Source of the DNA: Methanococcoides sp.
GTDB taxonomy: Archaea > Halobacteriota > Methanosarcinia > Methanosarcinales > Methanosarcinaceae
Reading direction: 5' to 3'
NCBI GenBank assembly: GCA_021108275.1
Contig: JAIORD010000037.1
Coordinates: forward strand, 1 to 64,000
Length of the DNA: 64,000 nucleotides
Shown: piece by piece, positions 4,584 to 21,046 of the stretch
How positions within the stretch are numbered: position 1 is the first letter of the stretch
How the letters are laid out: each line of letters starts with the position of its first letter
Program-made: the position numbers and the translations under genes
The notes under the pieces: generated by a model
Told to the model about the DNA's origin: nothing
Databases searched by the model: none
Seen by the model: the letters and a program-made list of their open reading frames with translations, nothing else

Positions 4584-4610
4584 TTGTGCCCTCGGCACCA
4601 TCCTTTTTTT
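4584..4610 (+). terminator. Hairpin plus T-tract terminator
   Basis: TGTGCC and GGCAC arms around a CTC loop (4586-4598), followed by a run of T at 4603-4610. It lies downstream of the secreted-protein/lipoprotein pair. Confidence 0.6.
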
Positions 4611-4683
4611 AGGTGTCATGATGAGAACCATTTCACTCAAAACCGGTATTGCATATAATATATTTGGGTTGCCAATATAAAAT

Positions 4684-4760
4684 TATTTACGCCTCCTTGC
4701 ACCACCCCAACGCATTTATATAGAACTACAAATCAATAGATATGTTAGTAGGCGTAAATA
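4684..4760 (+). promoter_or_regulatory. htpX promoter: TATA box framed by perfect 11-bp inverted repeat
   Basis: A TATA element TTTATATA occupies 4715-4722. It lies between TATTTACGCCT (4684-4694) and its exact inverted copy AGGCGTAAATA (4750-4760). With a start site about 25 bp after the TATA box, the right arm would sit at the transcription start, a plausible repressor position. Regulation, perhaps by heat or envelope stress, is inferred. Confidence 0.6.
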
Positions 4761-4819
4761 TCTAAAATTTACAGATTTTTCAAAGAACAAAAGATACATG
4801 CGCACTACTGAGGTAAAAC

Positions 4820-5677
4820 ATGAAGAACATGCTTAAGACCACATTATTACTTTCATCCTTGACGGGACTGCTGATCATTGTAGGTCGTCTTATCGGCGGA
4901 ACTGGCGGAATGTTCATCGCATTTGCGTTTGCACTTGTGCTGAACTTCGGCAGTTATTGGTACAGTGACAAGATAGTCCTGAAAATGTACAAAGCTAAAG
5001 AAGTGACAGAATCCGAAAGTCCGCAACTTTACGATGTTGTGAGAAATCTTGCAATGCGTGCCCAACTCCCGATGCCTAAGGTTTACATCGTGGAGACATC
5101 AATGCCAAATGCATTCGCCACAGGCAGAGATCCTAAACATGCAGCAGTAGCTGCAACCACGGGGATAATGAACATCCTCACACCAGAAGAGCTTGAAGGC
5201 GTGCTTGCCCATGAACTGGCACATGTGAAGAACAGGGACACACTTATCAGTGCTGTTGCTGCGACAATTGCCGGAGTTATCACAATGCTTGCCACCTGGG
5301 CAAGATGGGCTGCCATCTTTGGAGGTATCGGAGGCAGGGATGATGATGGGGGCGGAAATATTGTTGGCTTCATAGCACTTGCAATAGTGGCACCGCTGGC
5401 AGCAACCGTAATACAGTTTGCAATATCACGTTCACGTGAGTTCGGTGCAGATGCAGAAGGAGCACGCATTTCACAGAAACCCTGGGCGCTTGCCAGTGCA
5501 CTCTCTAAACTTGAATCTGGAGCACAGAACTATCAGCCAAGAAGGAACGATGTTCAGCCATCCCAGAACACAGCACATATGTTCATCGTCAATCCTCTGA
5601 GAGGAAGCTCATTGATGAAGTTGTTCAGGACACATCCGGCCACAGAGGAAAGGATACGCCGCCTGAACGAAATGTGA
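4820..5677 (+). CDS. htpX: HtpX-family membrane zinc metalloprotease (M48)
   Basis: 285 residues, normal length for HtpX. Two N-terminal transmembrane helices (about 7-22 and 28-46) are followed by the zinc motif HELAH at 131-135. Another hydrophobic hairpin (about 144-195) precedes [11 protein letters not shown], which supplies the third zinc ligand (Glu). It degrades damaged membrane proteins at the inner face. The ATG at 4820 follows GAGGTAAAAC, a good ribosome site. It converges with the DUF488 gene only 4 bp away. Confidence 0.93.
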
Positions 5678-6959: not shown

Positions 6960-8243
6960 ATGAAAGTTACAGTAGGAAGATCAGGAGTGCACGGAGAGAT
7001 CTTTGCACCTCCTTCAAAAAGTTACACTCACAGGGCTATCACAGTTGCAGCCCTCTCAAAAGAATCCATTATCCACAGACCTTTGATCTCAGCAGACACC
7101 CAATCAACGATAAAGGCCTGTGAGATGTTAGGTGCATACATAGAGAAGGATGGAGATAAATTATTGATAAGCGGTATTGACGGAGAACCACAAACTCCTG
7201 ACAACGTTATCGATGTTGGCAATTCCGGAACAACGCTTCGTTTTATGACAGCCGTTTCTGCCCTTGGCCAGGGAACTACTGTTCTTACAGGAGATAATTC
7301 CATAAGATCAAGGCCTAATGGACCACTGCTCAATGTATTGAACGACCTTGGAGTTCAGTCTATCTCAACACGAGGGAATGGGTGTGCACCTATTGTGGTG
7401 ACCGGAGGATTAAAAGGTGCTATCGCAAAGATAGACGGCTCCATAAGTTCACAGTTCATATCCGCACTTCTGCTTGCATGTCCACTAACAAAGAACAGCA
7501 CAACGCTTTCAATAAAGGGAGAACTGAAATCCAGACCTTATATCGACGTCACATTGGACATTCTGGAGAAAGCCGGTGCTGAGATATATCTGGAAGATAA
7601 TCAGAACCTTAAGTTCATAATACCTGGTAGCCAGAAGTACAGGCTCAAGGAATATACAGTACCAGGAGACTTTTCCTCGGCATCATATCTTCTTGCAGCA
7701 GCTGCAATGACAGATACGAAGATCAAGGTCAATAATCTGTACCCATCCATGCAGGGAGATATTGCTATCATAGATATCCTAAAGGAAATGGGTGCCAATG
7801 TCTACTGGAACAAAGAAGAAGGAACCGTGGAAGTAAATGGTGGCAAACTCCACGGCATTACAATGGATGCCGGCGCAACACCTGACCTCGTACCTACAGT
7901 CGCAGTTCTCGGTGCAGTTGCAGAAGGTGAGACTGTCATTACAAATGCCGAACACGTCAGATACAAGGAAACCGACAGGCTTCATGCAATGGCTGTAGAG
8001 CTCAATAAAATGGGAATCTCCACAAGTGAGGAAAAGGACAAGCTCACCATCAAAGGAGGAGAGCTTAAAGGTGCAGATGTTCACGGTTGGCACGATCACC
8101 GCATAGTGATGTCACTGACACTTGCCGGAATGATCGCAGGTGATACGACCATCGATACTGCGGAAGCCATCTTTATCTCATATCCGAACTTCTTCGATTC
8201 AATGCGTTCCATCGGAGCGGATGTGATCCTAAGCGAACAATGA
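6960..8243 (+). CDS. aroA: 3-phosphoshikimate 1-carboxyvinyltransferase (EPSP synthase)
   Basis: 427 residues. It transfers enolpyruvyl from PEP to shikimate-3-phosphate in aromatic amino-acid synthesis. The N-terminal APPSKSYTHRA holds the catalytic Lys and Ser. NSGTTLRFMTA binds PEP, followed by RPNGPLL, a DGSISSQFISALL motif and GDFSSASYLLAAAAM. The C-terminus carries HVRYKETDRLHAMA and HGWHDHRIVMS. Length and motifs are complete. It follows thyA with no gap, and GGGGTG upstream of the ATG serves as ribosome site. Confidence 0.96.
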   Translation: MKVTVGRSGVHGEIFAPPSKSYTHRAITVAALSKESIIHRPLISADTQSTIKACEMLGAYIEKDGDKLLISGIDGEPQTPDNVIDVGNSGTTLRFMTAVSALGQGTTVLTGDNSIRSRPNGPLLNVLNDLGVQSISTRGNGCAPIVVTGGLKGAIAKIDGSISSQFISALLLACPLTKNSTTLSIKGELKSRPYIDVTLDILEKAGAEIYLEDNQNLKFIIPGSQKYRLKEYTVPGDFSSASYLLAAAAMTDTKIKVNNLYPSMQGDIAIIDILKEMGANVYWNKEEGTVEVNGGKLHGITMDAGATPDLVPTVAVLGAVAEGETVITNAEHVRYKETDRLHAMAVELNKMGISTSEEKDKLTIKGGELKGADVHGWHDHRIVMSLTLAGMIAGDTTIDTAEAIFISYPNFFDSMRSIGADVILSEQ

Positions 8244-10177: not shown

Positions 10178-10232
10178 TGTATGCATTTCTTGAACAGGTC
10201 TCAGTGTATGCACTTTTTTGAACAGGAATCAG
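10178..10232. repeat. Two-copy tandem repeat (27/28 bp)
   Basis: Copy 1 at 10178-10204 and copy 2 at 10205-10232 share TGTATGCA, then TTTTGAACAGG-like and TCAG blocks with a few differences. The second copy runs into the cbiO stop codon. Probably a slippage duplication; no CRISPR-like spacing. Confidence 0.6.
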
Positions 10233-11137
10233 TGCCTGTAGCTTGATATTACATCATTGACCATTTCATGGGTGCTTTCATGTATATGAAGGCTCATTTT
10301 CCCTTCAAGCGCTTCAATTGCTTGTGTCAGTTCTTTAACAGATTCATCTATTGACATAGGAGTTTGATCACAATCCCCTCCAAAACATTTCATTATCTTG
10401 AAAAACTTAAATATATCAGGGGCATCCAGATTGTTTTCTTTTACAAGCACATGATCTGAAAATATATCCCTTGTTGGCCCCTCTGCCACTATAGACCTGT
10501 TCAGGACGTAGACCCTGTCTGCCAGCTCAGAGAGAGCATTGATATCGTGCATTGCTATTACAGTGGTGATACCATGGTTCTTGTTCAGGTCATTGATCAC
10601 TCTTATTAGATCTGCCCTGCTTTTAGGATCAAGGTTCGCTGTAGGCTCATCGAGTACCAAGACCCTTGGCTCCATGGAAAGAACTGCTGCAAGAGCCGCC
10701 TTTTTCTTCTGGCCAAAGCTCATGTGATGAGGTACTTTGTCCTCGAATCCTTCAAGACCGACGGTTGCAAGTGCTTTTTTCACCCTTCTGTCCACCTCTT
10801 CTTCACTAAGTCCCATGTTAAGGGGTCCGAATGCAATATCATCATAGACCGTAGACATGAACAACTGGTCGTCAGGTTCAGCAAAGACAACTCCGACCTC
10901 CCTGATCCTGTCTTCGGTCTTCATGCTCCCGATATTGTTGCCAAATATTTTCACATTGTCCTGCTCAGCGCGGATGACACCATTAAGATGAAGGAAAAGA
11001 GTGGTCTTCCCGGCCCCATTTGGCCCCATTATGACGATCTTTTCACCCTGTTCGACCTCAATATTTACATTATCTAGTGCTTTTGTACCATCAGGATAAG
11101 AATAGTTCAGATCTGTTATACTTATAGCCGTTTTCAT
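10229..11137 (-). CDS. cbiO: Cobalt/nickel ECF transporter ATPase with Cys/His tail
   Basis: 302 residues. ATP-binding subunit of an energy-coupling-factor transporter for Co2+ or Ni2+. Walker A GPNGAGKTTL (about 38-47), signature MSFGQKKKAALA, Walker B VLVLDEPTANLD and the switch histidine in VIAMHDINAL are all present. The last 60 residues go beyond the core and include CFGGDC (251-256) and HIHESTH (284-290), a possible metal-binding tail. The gene overlaps cbiQ by 4 bp. It closes the leftward operon. Confidence 0.93.
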   Translation of the reverse strand: MKTAISITDLNYSYPDGTKALDNVNIEVEQGEKIVIMGPNGAGKTTLFLHLNGVIRAEQDNVKIFGNNIGSMKTEDRIREVGVVFAEPDDQLFMSTVYDDIAFGPLNMGLSEEEVDRRVKKALATVGLEGFEDKVPHHMSFGQKKKAALAAVLSMEPRVLVLDEPTANLDPKSRADLIRVINDLNKNHGITTVIAMHDINALSELADRVYVLNRSIVAEGPTRDIFSDHVLVKENNLDAPDIFKFFKIMKCFGGDCDQTPMSIDESVKELTQAIEALEGKMSLHIHESTHEMVNDVISSYRH

Positions 11138-11898
11138 GATAAGGACATCCCATATATTATAAATATCAAAACAGTACCAATTAAGATCGCTGCCAATCCG
11201 TAATCTGCAGTCTGCATTTTAAATTTAACAATTGTCCTGGACTCTCCGGTGTAACCTTTTGAGGCCATAGAATGATAGACCCTTTCAGCTCTTTCATAGC
11301 TCCTGACAAGGATCATGCCAACTAGATTGCCTATGATGGAAAGGGAATGCTTGTTTGCTTTTACCTTAAACCCTTTGGCTTTCATTGATGTCCACATGCT
11401 AAGGAACTCATCAATAAAAACAAAAATGTACCTATAAGAGAACATCAGCGTCTGGACAAAAGGAGAAGGTACCTTAAGTGAATGAAGTGACTTCATCGTA
11501 GTATCCATTTTCGTTGTCCCAAGCATGATCAGTGTAAGCATGATCGATGTTGCTGCCCTTATAACTACAAGGCTGCCATAATAAAGACCATCATAACTGA
11601 TACTAATTCCGTTATAGGAATAAAGGACATTTCCATCTAATGCAAAAGGCATTACTATCAGAAATGGCATAACAAAGATCAAGCCTGGTTTCATCCTATT
11701 AAAGATAAATCCAAAAGGAATTCTTGATACAAGTAAAATGAAGGATGAAAAAAGCAGGCTTACAAATGCGATCCTTATATCTTCTATAAAAACAAAAGAA
11801 AAAATAAGAAGGGTAAAAGTAATTATTTTTGCCCTCGGGTCAAATCGATGAATAAGAGAATCAAGTTCTGCATATTTATCAATTTCAGGGTATTTCAT
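11134..11898 (-). CDS. cbiQ: Cobalt/nickel ECF transporter transmembrane subunit
   Basis: 254 residues with five or so hydrophobic segments and the coupling motifs typical of CbiQ/EcfT: SYRYIFVFIDEFLSMWTSMKAKG and RSYERAERVYHSMASKGYTG, which contact the ATPase. It couples ATP hydrolysis to the substrate-binding CbiM/NikM. It overlaps cbiO by 4 bp and follows the N-component gene by 17 bp. Confidence 0.92.
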   Translation of the reverse strand: MKYPEIDKYAELDSLIHRFDPRAKIITFTLLIFSFVFIEDIRIAFVSLLFSSFILLVSRIPFGFIFNRMKPGLIFVMPFLIVMPFALDGNVLYSYNGISISYDGLYYGSLVVIRAATSIMLTLIMLGTTKMDTTMKSLHSLKVPSPFVQTLMFSYRYIFVFIDEFLSMWTSMKAKGFKVKANKHSLSIIGNLVGMILVRSYERAERVYHSMASKGYTGESRTIVKFKMQTADYGLAAILIGTVLIFIIYGMSLS

Positions 11899-11915: not shown

Positions 11916-12353
11916 TTAATTATTTCCTTTCTTTGCGGTATAGACCATTGCAATTCCTGCAAGTCCCATAAGGTATCCAAATCCGGTGAAGATCCTCATG
12001 AAAAGAGGAAGTTCAGCTGGCTTGTTGTTGCCACCTGTGGCACTTACTATAGCATCACCTTTGTGACCAAACTGGTCAACGACCACATGGTATTGTATAA
12101 CACCTTCAACCGGTGCAAAACTTAAGAAACCATCTTCATCGGTCTCTCCTTCATAAAGGAGCTCTTCGGTATCTGCATTAAGTATCTGGTACTCTGCCAA
12201 CCCCATTGGTGCATCGCCTTCATAGAAAGCCTTTACAATGATCTCATCACCGCTGAACTGTTCTACGAAACACCTATGTGCAGATGCAGTTGGTATAAGT
12301 GACATACACAGAATTAATAATATTGTTATAGTGAAAATTTTGGTGGATCTCAT
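11916..12353 (-). CDS. Accessory (NikN/NikL-like) component of Ni/Co ECF transporter
   Basis: 145 residues. Signal sequence ending in PTASA, then HRCFVEQF, which exposes a His and Cys at the mature N-terminus. An extracellular beta domain follows (EIIVKAFYEGDAPMGLAEYQ..., EGETDEDGFLSF) and one C-terminal transmembrane helix (LMGLAGIAMVYTA). This matches the additional small membrane component found beside NikM/CbiM in place of CbiN. The exposed His/Cys may help deliver metal (inference). Overlaps cbiM by 4 bp. Confidence 0.8.
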   Translation of the reverse strand: MRSTKIFTITILLILCMSLIPTASAHRCFVEQFSGDEIIVKAFYEGDAPMGLAEYQILNADTEELLYEGETDEDGFLSFAPVEGVIQYHVVVDQFGHKGDAIVSATGGNNKPAELPLFMRIFTGFGYLMGLAGIAMVYTAKKGNN

Positions 12354-12976
12354 TTTTGGTCCTCCTTGTTAAGTGGAAGAAGTTCTGGCTTTACCTTTGC
12401 AAGGTAAGCTACTACTGATGCTGTTACTATTGTTTCAATTACCATTATGAGCATGTGTGGGATCACTACAAGCTTTGCCATCATTTCGAATTGCTCTCCT
12501 GCTGTAATAAGCGTTATAGCTAGGAAGACCGTTGTCAGAAGTATTGCAAGACCTCCACAAATACCGCCAATAGCAGGCTTTGAAAGTCCCATACCCGAAC
12601 CTTTCCTGAATACTGCATAACAGATCAAAGCAGGTGCACCCACATTGAAACTGTTTATTCCTATCGTGGTTATGCCCCCGTGCTGGAACAACAATGCCTG
12701 AAGTACCAGACCAATGAACATTGCAGGATATGCAAGTGCGCCAAGGACAACACCCAACAATCCATTCAGGATAAGATGTACACTTGTAGGTGGTACGTTT
12801 ATGTGAATAAGCGAAGCAACAAAAAAAGCTGCTGTGAATACGGATAGTTTGGGGATCTGTTCTGCAATGCTGCCCTGTTTTTGAGCCATCTTGAAAGCAA
12901 ATGCGATCATGATTATTGAAACGATCCAGCCAAACGCTATAACAGCTGGAGATAGTACCCCGTCTGAAATATGCAT
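12350..12976 (-). CDS. cbiM: Cobalt/nickel ECF transporter substrate-binding subunit
   Basis: The protein begins MHISDGVLSP; in this family the N-terminal Met-His amine/imidazole group directly binds the metal, so the second of two adjacent ATGs (12976, not 12979) is the functional choice. AAGGAGTG is the ribosome site. 208 residues with about six membrane helices and the conserved HINVPPTSVHLILNGLLG. Whether the metal is Ni or Co cannot be decided from sequence alone; the NikN-like partner rather than CbiN hints at nickel. Confidence 0.92.
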   Translation of the reverse strand: MHISDGVLSPAVIAFGWIVSIIMIAFAFKMAQKQGSIAEQIPKLSVFTAAFFVASLIHINVPPTSVHLILNGLLGVVLGALAYPAMFIGLVLQALLFQHGGITTIGINSFNVGAPALICYAVFRKGSGMGLSKPAIGGICGGLAILLTTVFLAITLITAGEQFEMMAKLVVIPHMLIMVIETIVTASVVAYLAKVKPELLPLNKEDQK

Positions 12977-13044: not shown

Positions 13045-14187
13045 TTATTTCCTTCTAAAAAGACAGATTGCACCAAGGATACCTGCAATTGCAATTGGGA
13101 ATCCAAATCCTGGTACGCTGTTACCTTCAGCTTCTGTTGAAATTTCGGAAGGTTCTGCTGCAACTGCTGCAGGATAGAGGGCATCTTCAAGTTTCTCTGA
13201 CTTCTTCTGGAGCTGTTTTGCTTCATACTCTGCCTTGTGTACAGTGTCGTGTGTTGCACTTGCATGTGTAAGATATGGTTCTTCCAGGTCGAGAATTGCG
13301 TGAACAGCTTCATCGTGGCTCATGAGCTCGTCCATGATCTCCTGTGCACGTTCACCGATCTCACCGATCTTGGCCTTCACAGCAGCTTCATTTGCATCTG
13401 GTTCTGCAGCAAGTGGCTTGAGTTCATCAATGTCCTCAAGGATAGCTTCTGCTGCCTGTTCTACAGTATGGGATGAAAGGTGTACTTCCTCACCATAATC
13501 TCTCCACTGCTGGTCAAGAGCTTCATCATCAGCAATGTACTCCGTCTCATCGTGGATAGTATGGGAAAGCTCCACCATTTCATTTGCAAGCTCTTCCATA
13601 GCTGTTACGTATGTTCCAGCATCGCCTTCAAGTACTACAGCTTCTGCAAAACCAAGGTCTTCCTCTACTTCTGCAGCGTGGCTCTTGATGTGATTTGCAA
13701 TTGAACCTGCCTCTGTAACAGCTTCTTTGATAGCTGTTGCATACTGCTGCTTTGATTCAGGTGCATCGGAAAGGATCTTCTGAATGTCTGCGTCCTTGCT
13801 ATCGATAAGCTCAATTGCTTCATCAGCATGTTCGGTTATCTCACCAAGGGCGATCATGATCTCGTCTTCGTTTGCTTCCGAATCAGCTGCGAGTACTTTA
13901 AGCTCATCAGCGCGTTCCTTTATGTGCTCTCCGATCTGCTCGATCTCATGGGAGGAAAGGTGTACAGATTCTCCTGCAGCCCTTAGATCATCATCAAGAG
14001 CTTCATCATCAGCTATGAACTCGGTCTGATCGTGGATAGTCACGGATATCTCTACAAGTTCCTCTGCATGCTCAATGACCTCATTGATAGCCATATTCTC
14101 ATCCCCGTGAGCGGATGCAGGAAATACGCTTGCTACCATTAGGACAAGTGTTATAATTGCAATTCCAAATATTTTATTAAAATTCAT
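13045..14187 (-). CDS. Duplicated His/Asp/Glu-rich surface protein with PGF-CTERM anchor
   Basis: 380 residues. Signal peptide ending FPASA is followed by HGDE. The body is an exact two-fold duplication with a 160-residue offset: IHDQTEFIADDEALD at 51-65 matches IHDETEYIADDEALD at 211-225, and HLSSH at 76-80 matches HLSSH at 236-240. Predicted all-helical. The C-terminus VPGFGF, hydrophobic helix and FRRK is a PGF-CTERM sorting signal, so the protein is surface-anchored. It heads the Ni/Co transporter operon, so extracellular metal capture is a reasonable inference. The start at 14187 (MNFNKIF) gives a normal signal peptide; the frame extends 30 bp further to 14217. Confidence 0.85.
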   Translation of the reverse strand: MNFNKIFGIAIITLVLMVASVFPASAHGDENMAINEVIEHAEELVEISVTIHDQTEFIADDEALDDDLRAAGESVHLSSHEIEQIGEHIKERADELKVLAADSEANEDEIMIALGEITEHADEAIELIDSKDADIQKILSDAPESKQQYATAIKEAVTEAGSIANHIKSHAAEVEEDLGFAEAVVLEGDAGTYVTAMEELANEMVELSHTIHDETEYIADDEALDQQWRDYGEEVHLSSHTVEQAAEAILEDIDELKPLAAEPDANEAAVKAKIGEIGERAQEIMDELMSHDEAVHAILDLEEPYLTHASATHDTVHKAEYEAKQLQKKSEKLEDALYPAAVAAEPSEISTEAEGNSVPGFGFPIAIAGILGAICLFRRK

Positions 14188-14217: not shown

Positions 14218-14709
14218 CCTGATATTTCAAACATCATAACATTCATACTATGTTCTGTGTTACAGACTGTAAAATAGAATCACATATATATATTTTACCT
14301 TGTGGTAACAGTTGTATACATATTGGGTAATAGTTGTTAATTGAAGCCACCCCACATCAAATTTACAATGACAAATAAACGGTAACAGCGTAAACTTTAA
14401 AAAGATAAATAAAAAGATATGGTATATCACACCTGAATAGCCACCGAGTAACAGTGTAAACTTTCGAAGAATAAACTAAGTGATGCGGCACAACCCAGGC
14501 GGCTTGAAAAAGAAAGACATTTTAAGGATAAAGTAATACAGGTGTTAAATCAAAAAGAAAACTCAATTAGATATGATGTTTTTTACAGACAGGTTCCTAT
14601 TCAAAAAAACGGACTGTTCTTAAACCGTTTTGTCACCAAGAAATATAAAGGACCTGTGATGCCTTAAACTACAAAGTTTTACAGTCGTAAACATTCAAGG
14701 AGGTAATTT
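14218..14709. promoter_or_regulatory. Divergent control region with repeated TAACAG/GTAAAC motifs
   Basis: 492 bp between divergent genes. Related motifs occur at 14260-14276 (starting with palindrome TTACAGACTGTAA), 14305-14320, 14382-14398 and 14448-14464 (17 bp, one mismatch between these two), and 14679-14695. A second palindrome TTACCTTGTGGTAA lies at 14295-14308. A TATA-like AAATATAAAG is at 14641-14650 for the plus-strand gene, whose ATG follows AAGGAGG. A start-less open frame runs 14452-14667. Confidence 0.55.
14452..14667 (+). pseudogene. Possible 3' remnant of an unknown gene
   Basis: An open frame of about 70 codons ends in VTKKYKGPVMP and a TAA at 14665-14667. It has no ATG, GTG or TTG start in a plausible place and an in-frame stop just upstream. 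Lys/Glu-rich content could be chance in AT-rich DNA. No family recognised. Confidence 0.3.
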
Positions 14710-17509: not shown

Positions 17510-17843
17510 TTACAACTTTGCGATGATAGCGTCGGTCATCTCGCTAAGAGCTGCATTTCCACCAAGGTCATAGGTGAGATGCTTGCCTTCTGAAATGACA
17601 TCCTCTGTTGCCTTGAAGATCTGTGCAGCTTTGTCAGCCTCATCAAGATAGTCAAGCATCCATGCGCCTGCAAGAATGGTTGCCACAAGGTTTACCTTGT
17701 CCAGACCTGCATATTTTGGTGCTGAACCGTGTGCGGGTTCGAACATTGCGAAGTTGCCACCGATGTTTGCGGAGTAGATAAGATCGATACTGCCGATAAG
17801 TGCGGAACATTCCTCACTGATGACATCCATGAACAGGTTGGTT
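17510..17843 (-). pseudogene. 3' remnant of native homodimeric isocitrate dehydrogenase
   Basis: The frame encodes the C-terminal ~110 residues of an isocitrate/isopropylmalate dehydrogenase-family protein: TNLFMDVISEECSALIGS, SANIGGNFAMFEPAHGSAPK and NLVATILAGAWMLDY. The N-terminal two thirds, including the substrate-binding Ser/Arg motifs and the metal Asp, are missing. Homology stops near 17843, exactly where an unrelated bacterial-looking frame begins on the other strand. The ATG at 17875 lies in that foreign DNA and is fortuitous. Confidence 0.88.
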
Positions 17844-18230
17844 GAAAATTGGACTACGTCTGAAGATTTAGCCATTAATGGGACTCATTACGGTTATTAT
17901 GATGGATTAGGCGTCTATGAAGCAACATTTACGAATACAACCTTCACCTATGAATATCTAACGCCGGCAGACACCTATTACGGTTCCTTTGATGTATTAT
18001 TTTATGACAACGATGAGGGATTTGTCCTGTTGAGATGCACTGATAACAATGATCCGGAAGAGATCGGCAAATTTCAGAAAATTTTATGGACAGAGAACTC
18101 CGGCAGTTATACGGTCAGTAATACGGAAACGTCCTTTGACGGAATCCACATCACGAAAACTGACGATTTCATGATAGAAGACGCATCTGTCTTCCCAACC
18201 CAAGCAGAAGCGGAAGCTTTAGCTCCCTAA
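17843..18230 (+). pseudogene. 3' fragment of a foreign secreted/beta protein gene
   Basis: The open frame begins inside the junction with native DNA and lacks its own start and signal peptide. It reads ENWTTSEDLAINGTHYGYYD, then alternating Tyr/Thr/Phe strands and ends AEAEALAP. It looks like the C-terminal part of a bacterial lipoprotein or beta-barrel-like protein carried in with the neighbouring dehydrogenase gene, with which it is convergent. No family recognised. Confidence 0.6.

Positions 18231-18301: not shown

Positions 18302-21046
<2,745 letters not shown>

Follow-up and report, generated by a model that had tools for sequence, protein, structure and literature searches.

The window, i.e. 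the whole stretch of 64,000 nucleotides that was analysed, is contig C2 of a Methanococcoides genome of 2.67 Mb, and close relatives of the locus are found in Methanococcoides alaskense and M. seepicolus. Five genes on the same strand form a tight operon in which neighbours overlap or are separated by gaps of at most 68 bp. The gene under study, hereafter the target gene, is the first of them, in agreement with the initial annotation. The features of the locus are as follows.

14218..14500, minus strand: upstream region with repeated GTTTAC..TGTTAC boxes (direct repeat D4), putative operators, partly conserved in same-genus relatives
13045..14187, minus strand: target gene, operon head, encoding a predicted secreted, duplicated, His-rich helical protein of 380 aa with a PGF-CTERM anchor (ORF, TIGR04126, repeat register, homologues in the same slot)
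14110..14187, minus strand: signal-peptide-like segment, residues 1-26 (ASA|HGDEN), from sequence reading and a crude cleavage scan
13657..14100, minus strand: repeat 1, residues 30-177, predicted four-helix bundle retaining H52, H76 and H80, with the His of helices C and D lost (AlphaFold2 model, conservation)
13177..13626, minus strand: repeat 2, residues 188-337, predicted four-helix bundle retaining H212, H236, H240, H296, H313 and H317 (AlphaFold2 models, pLDDT 97.4; conservation)
13048..13123, minus strand: PGF-CTERM sorting/anchor segment, residues 355-380 (NCBIfam TIGR04126, E 6.3e-08, 32.1 bits against a cut-off of 24.5)
12350..12976, minus strand: NikM/CbiM, substrate-specific component of an ECF importer (Pfam PF01891, E 4.5e-53), starting with MHISDG
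11916..12353, minus strand: NikL-like small extracytoplasmic subunit (NCBIfam NF058648, E 9.8e-15, below cut-off)
11134..11898, minus strand: CbiQ/NikQ transmembrane coupling component (TIGR02454, above cut-off)
10229..11137, minus strand: CbiO/NikO ATPase (ABC_tran and ECF ATPase models)

The 380-aa reading frame starts with the ATG at 14187, and an alternative in-frame ATG lies 30 nt upstream. The gene order cbiM-N-Q-O that had been assigned to the importer genes was not upheld. The third gene of the operon has no CbiN match in Pfam, and its sole NCBIfam match is to the NikL model NF058648, at 55 bits against a cut-off of 100. The true CbiN of this genome resides in a CbiMNQO operon on another contig (C15), adjoining genes that by inspection resemble CbiD and CbiE. 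Besides the target-headed operon the genome carries one NikK-headed sister operon (C4), in which NikK, with a PGF-CTERM tail of its own, occupies the same slot. The upstream boxes of the target gene lie at 14382-14497, and TGTTA-N10/11-TAACA palindromes occur upstream of the loci L041 and L043 and of a NikK operon (L057). A common regulator site was sought across the loci; boxes or palindromes were present in some only, and none was established. The NikR gene of the genome is located on C10. Elsewhere in the window, an ORF of 121 aa at 17510-17875 on the minus strand covers the C-terminal part of a dimeric isocitrate/isopropylmalate dehydrogenase (PF00180, profile positions 234-348 of 348). 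With a monomeric isocitrate dehydrogenase encoded nearby (18302-20527), it has the look of a leftover from an enzyme that was displaced; in M. seepicolus (L038), a 121-aa ORF likewise adjoins a 741-aa ORF.

The target protein appears to be anchored at the cell surface, as judged from predicted sorting signals. The PGF-CTERM segment that had been proposed at its C terminus is confirmed by the above-cut-off match to TIGR04126, and the genome encodes an archaeosortase (TIGR04125, 296.5 bits against a cut-off of 75). Cleavage at ASA|HGDEN would expose His27, as the initial annotation had supposed. This residue is not conserved among homologues, and we therefore gave up the idea that an N-terminal His is needed as a ligand. 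The mature region is acidic, with a predicted pI of 4.2, which could help to raise the metal concentration at NikM. Acidic composition is, however, usual in salt-adapted archaea.

The mature protein contains two repeats in a register of exactly 160 residues, and the paired motifs described earlier are in place: IHD at 51-53 and 211-213, HLSSH at 76-80 and 236-240. The duplication had been called exact, which holds for the register only; with 59 of 160 residues identical without gaps (37%) and 65 of 151 in a local alignment (43%), the repeats have diverged too far to be an exact copy. The alignment score of 278 compares with a mean of 52 for shuffled sequences (sd 8.5, maximum 85), and from these sequence comparisons we conclude that the duplication is real but old. 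Within the family the number of repeats varies, being one in a Methanohalobium MAG (L067), three in a Methanosalsum MAG (L068) and two in the target. The E-values of the repeat profile behind these counts are circular, since its members had helped to build it. A separate profile seeded with one repeat recovered the homologues and no other match among 1,745 ORFs. The weak matches of a phylum-wide search were mostly no more than PGF-CTERM tails, and those we disregarded. A single copy of the domain was found in the window genome, the second match of that search being such a tail alone.

The target gene is under purifying selection (dN/dS 0.15-0.28). The M. seepicolus copy (L038, 8035-9189) is a mosaic in which one block has just 64% DNA identity to the window, and its dS of 0.39 compares with 0.03-0.05 for NikM-NikL-CbiQ-CbiO. 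Since dS itself exceeds that of the neighbouring genes about tenfold, we rejected fast adaptive evolution; the pattern of substitutions indicates that this divergence is an allele exchange in a surface gene.

AlphaFold2 on an alignment of 11 rows predicted two four-helix bundles with pLDDT mostly above 90, and repeat 2 alone, modelled on 23 rows, reached a pLDDT of 97.4 and a pTM of 0.89. Conservation is concentrated on histidines. Counted over dereplicated repeats of the family, the HLSSH residues His76 and His80 are among the best conserved positions, each being His in 32 of 33 repeats, followed by His52 (23/33), a His on helix C (22/32) and three on helix D (20/29, 20/31 and 20/31). Repeat 2 of the window keeps every conserved His but one (Tyr305). 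Repeat 1 lacks those of helices C and D, which are replaced by Q136, K146, K154 and T158, and some repeats of the family have lost His. The suggestion that His52/76/80 and 212/236/240 form metal clusters gains from this conservation and from the helix ends of the models, which put these residues on about one level, close to an end of each predicted bundle, rather than scattering them. It is weakened by the helical wheel, on which the HxxxH pair seems to point to the outward side of helix B; for this reason a metal site would more likely be exposed on the surface than form a buried di-metal centre. Distances between His residues derived from an idealised bundle were not relied on, as the outcome depends on the assumed handedness.

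Curated families (Pfam, NCBIfam) and PDB sequences gave matches to the anchor or to low-complexity helices only, and no family covers the repeat domain. A Foldseek search of the PDB returned no significant relative (E <= 0.001). The best full-length match, with long helices over about 260 residues and a probability of 1.0, was 3d19 from Bacillus cereus, titled a conserved metalloprotein; it was rejected as a relative at E 0.0095 and a TM score of about 0.3. Designed bundles, among them haem-binding ones with a weak fold similarity to the target, were likewise rejected as their matches were not significant. Matches to predicted viral structures were also not significant, and a scan of viral contigs confirmed no relative.

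Homologues with 23-97% identity lie directly before nikM/cbiM in many genera, including Methanococcoides, Methanolobus vulcani, the Methanohalobium and Methanosalsum MAGs and several others, some of them from other families of the phylum. The predicted co-occurrence with nikM/cbiM was thereby borne out: a NikM-type gene was present in all 19 domain-bearing genomes among 100 relatives surveyed (Fisher 5e-08, phylogeny ignored), and NikM/CbiM operons contain homologues with as little as about 23% identity. Within Methanococcoides, the target protein occurs in 5/5 genomes with the orthologous NikM and is absent from 6/6 without it. No importer was found near the homologues at L047, L049, L051 and L060.

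What the first reading had overlooked is that the target takes the operon slot of NikK. Among the 100 relatives, the NikM-type operons were headed by a DUF4198/NikK protein in 33 cases (two of which are possibly one locus assembled twice), and by a target-type protein in 16; none contained both, an exclusion with a Fisher value of at most 4e-08, uncorrected for phylogeny. The remaining NikM loci of this survey were contig ends, orphan NikM genes and other layouts. In 20 of the NikK-headed operons NikK directly precedes NikM and in 13 the order is NikK-NikL-NikM; in one further operon (L053) a target-type protein is located between NikL and CbiQ. A complete NikK operon adjoins the target-type operon in G080, and NikK and NikL genes directly precede it in Methanolobus vulcani. 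There, the stretch that separates the target-type gene from the NikK-NikL pair (L063, about 7550-8000) resembles by eye a decayed NikM gene. In L123, a different secreted protein of 337 aa without a Pfam match (4597-5610) stands before a second NikM-NikL pair and is perhaps a third type of operon head.

We consider it rather probable that the target is a surface metal-capturing protein standing in for NikK beside an ECF nickel/cobalt importer. Because it is usually encoded with such an importer, in the slot of the unrelated NikK, its probable task is to trap scarce metal ions that the importer then takes up. Secreted and anchored by its PGF-CTERM tail, as predicted, the protein would expose two acidic four-helix bundles on the outer face of the membrane and would take the position held in the sister operon by NikK, an unrelated DUF4198 protein. 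Its His clusters would consist of the HxxxH pair of helix B and the His of helix A; in repeat 2, helices C and D would contribute a comparable group. They may reversibly bind divalent metal ions and thereby concentrate them next to NikM. The outward-facing metal site of NikM is its N-terminal Met-His site, and the captured ion might be handed over to this site for ATP-driven import. For the operon in the window, nickel is more likely than cobalt because the genome has a CbiMNQO system with a true CbiN on C15 and because K/L-type systems are linked to nickel, with some cobalt cases (PMC2667541).

Other partners of the domain widen the range of candidate metals. A relative of 1,518 aa (L046) has CbiX and FmdE domains as fusion partners, along with a dockerin, and copies in Ca. 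Methanolliviera have a long C-terminal part that by inspection is a propeller-like repeat. A close relative of this propeller fusion is found on a contig labelled candidate division WOR-3 (L070), probably a binning error. In G433 (L122) the target-type operon directly follows CbiD and tetrapyrrole-methylase genes, and LarA genes together with a sodium:solute symporter gene lie near L039, L040 and L049, the LarA of L040 being assigned above cut-off to the nickel-dependent malate racemase LarAH6. The symporter gene recurs beside a target-type gene or NikM in L039, L040, L049, L169 and L170, often with LarA racemase genes. Given these varied partners (CbiX/FmdE, FeoAB, CbiD, LarA), the metal could be nickel, cobalt or iron depending on the locus.

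The FeoAB case bears most directly on specificity. Proteins 61-66% identical to the NikM-linked L050 protein are encoded in FeoA-FeoB operons of two genera of one family, and in a third genus of this family a protein 77% identical to L050 is found in a NikM operon (L129). Since such near relatives sit in FeoAB operons, the nickel/cobalt specificity ascribed to the target in the initial annotation was not established, and together with the CbiX fusion they suggest that the domain may serve divalent metals generally. The protein might then be a general recruiter or buffer of divalent metals on the archaeal surface without a preference for nickel or cobalt, specificity residing solely in the paired importer, be it NikM or FeoB. 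To this we give serious weight, though slightly less than would make it probable, as by far the most of the homologues found belong to NikM/CbiM operons and Feo-type links turned up in a single family. With comparable reserve, we think it possible that the target belongs to an undescribed archaeal family of anchored His-rich four-helix-bundle domains whose members recruit divalent metals at the surface, both as parts of extracellular CbiX-type proteins and on behalf of importers that are unrelated to each other (ECF NikMLQO, FeoB). Such a family would have displaced the non-homologous NikK from many operons of methanogens.

The duplicated, rigid bundles and their anchor, together with outward conserved residues that could form a contact surface, would also suit a scaffold that positions NikL/NikM or spaces the importer from the S-layer without any role as metal ligand. 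The exclusion of NikK fits a structural slot equally well. We regard this as unlikely, because it is His on which conservation is concentrated and because the CbiX fusion and the FeoAB neighbours point to metal. A His-rich, acidic protein predicted to be surface-anchored might instead sequester excess metal and shield the surface rather than feed the importer; its place as first gene of an importer operon in nearly every case, and not with efflux genes, makes this very improbable. That the target binds a tetrapyrrole (haem, corrinoid or a precursor) is least credible of all: the CbiX/FmdE fusion, the cbi genes that adjoin the operon at L122 and L123 and the likeness to designed haem-binding bundles are outweighed by partner importers that carry bare ions, HxxxH pairs on the outer helix face instead of in the bundle core, and non-significant fold matches.

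Capture of metal for the importer remains our preferred reading. Operon position, exclusion of NikK, the anchor, conserved His, the CbiX/FmdE fusion and the FeoAB neighbours suggest a metal role; counting against it are the apparently outward HxxxH, the absence of a significant match to a metal-binding fold, an acidity usual for salt-adapted archaea, some homologues without a nearby importer and some repeats that have lost His. The earlier term 'metallophore-like' is misleading, because the target is an anchored protein. In our view it is genuine and, it appears, has not been described before: an accessory protein with a putative biochemical role in a transporter class that is itself known. 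Its gene neighbourhood supports this assignment well.

Methanogens need much nickel and cobalt. The route of nickel uptake in archaeal methanogens was stated to be unknown (PMC10617489), and no description of the target protein was found in the open-access literature, subscription papers lying outside this search. Alternating one for one with NikK beside the importers, the target offers a concrete candidate, open to experiment, for the protein that first captures the metal.

ECF importers normally use no separate binding protein. Like periplasmic substrate-binding proteins of the NikA type, the target would capture metal outside the membrane for an ABC-type importer, but it matches no substrate-binding-protein family in Pfam or NCBIfam and consists of four-helix bundles instead. 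With PGF-CTERM surface proteins (TIGR04126) it shares the C-terminal PGF motif, transmembrane segment and basic end, above cut-off; this anchor is all they have in common and is uninformative on function. The small subunits NikL, NikN and CbiN are, like the target, extracytoplasmic accessory parts encoded with NikM/CbiM. The target is, however, a separate gene in an operon that has its own NikL-like gene besides. NikK and NikL were described as additional components acting when NikN is absent, and in archaea only NikMN1QO and NikMN2QO had been found (PMC2667541). NikK (DUF4198, PF10670) of the NikKMLQO systems is the closest counterpart, being in these archaea likewise secreted, PGF-CTERM-anchored and encoded at the head of a NikM-NikL-NikQ-NikO operon. 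In contrast to NikK, the target has no PF10670 match and is built of all-helical repeats, and in a profile comparison only the 42-column anchor aligned, with no homology detectable outside it. The role of NikK itself is thus also touched by our findings, as the slot is conserved and the fold is not.
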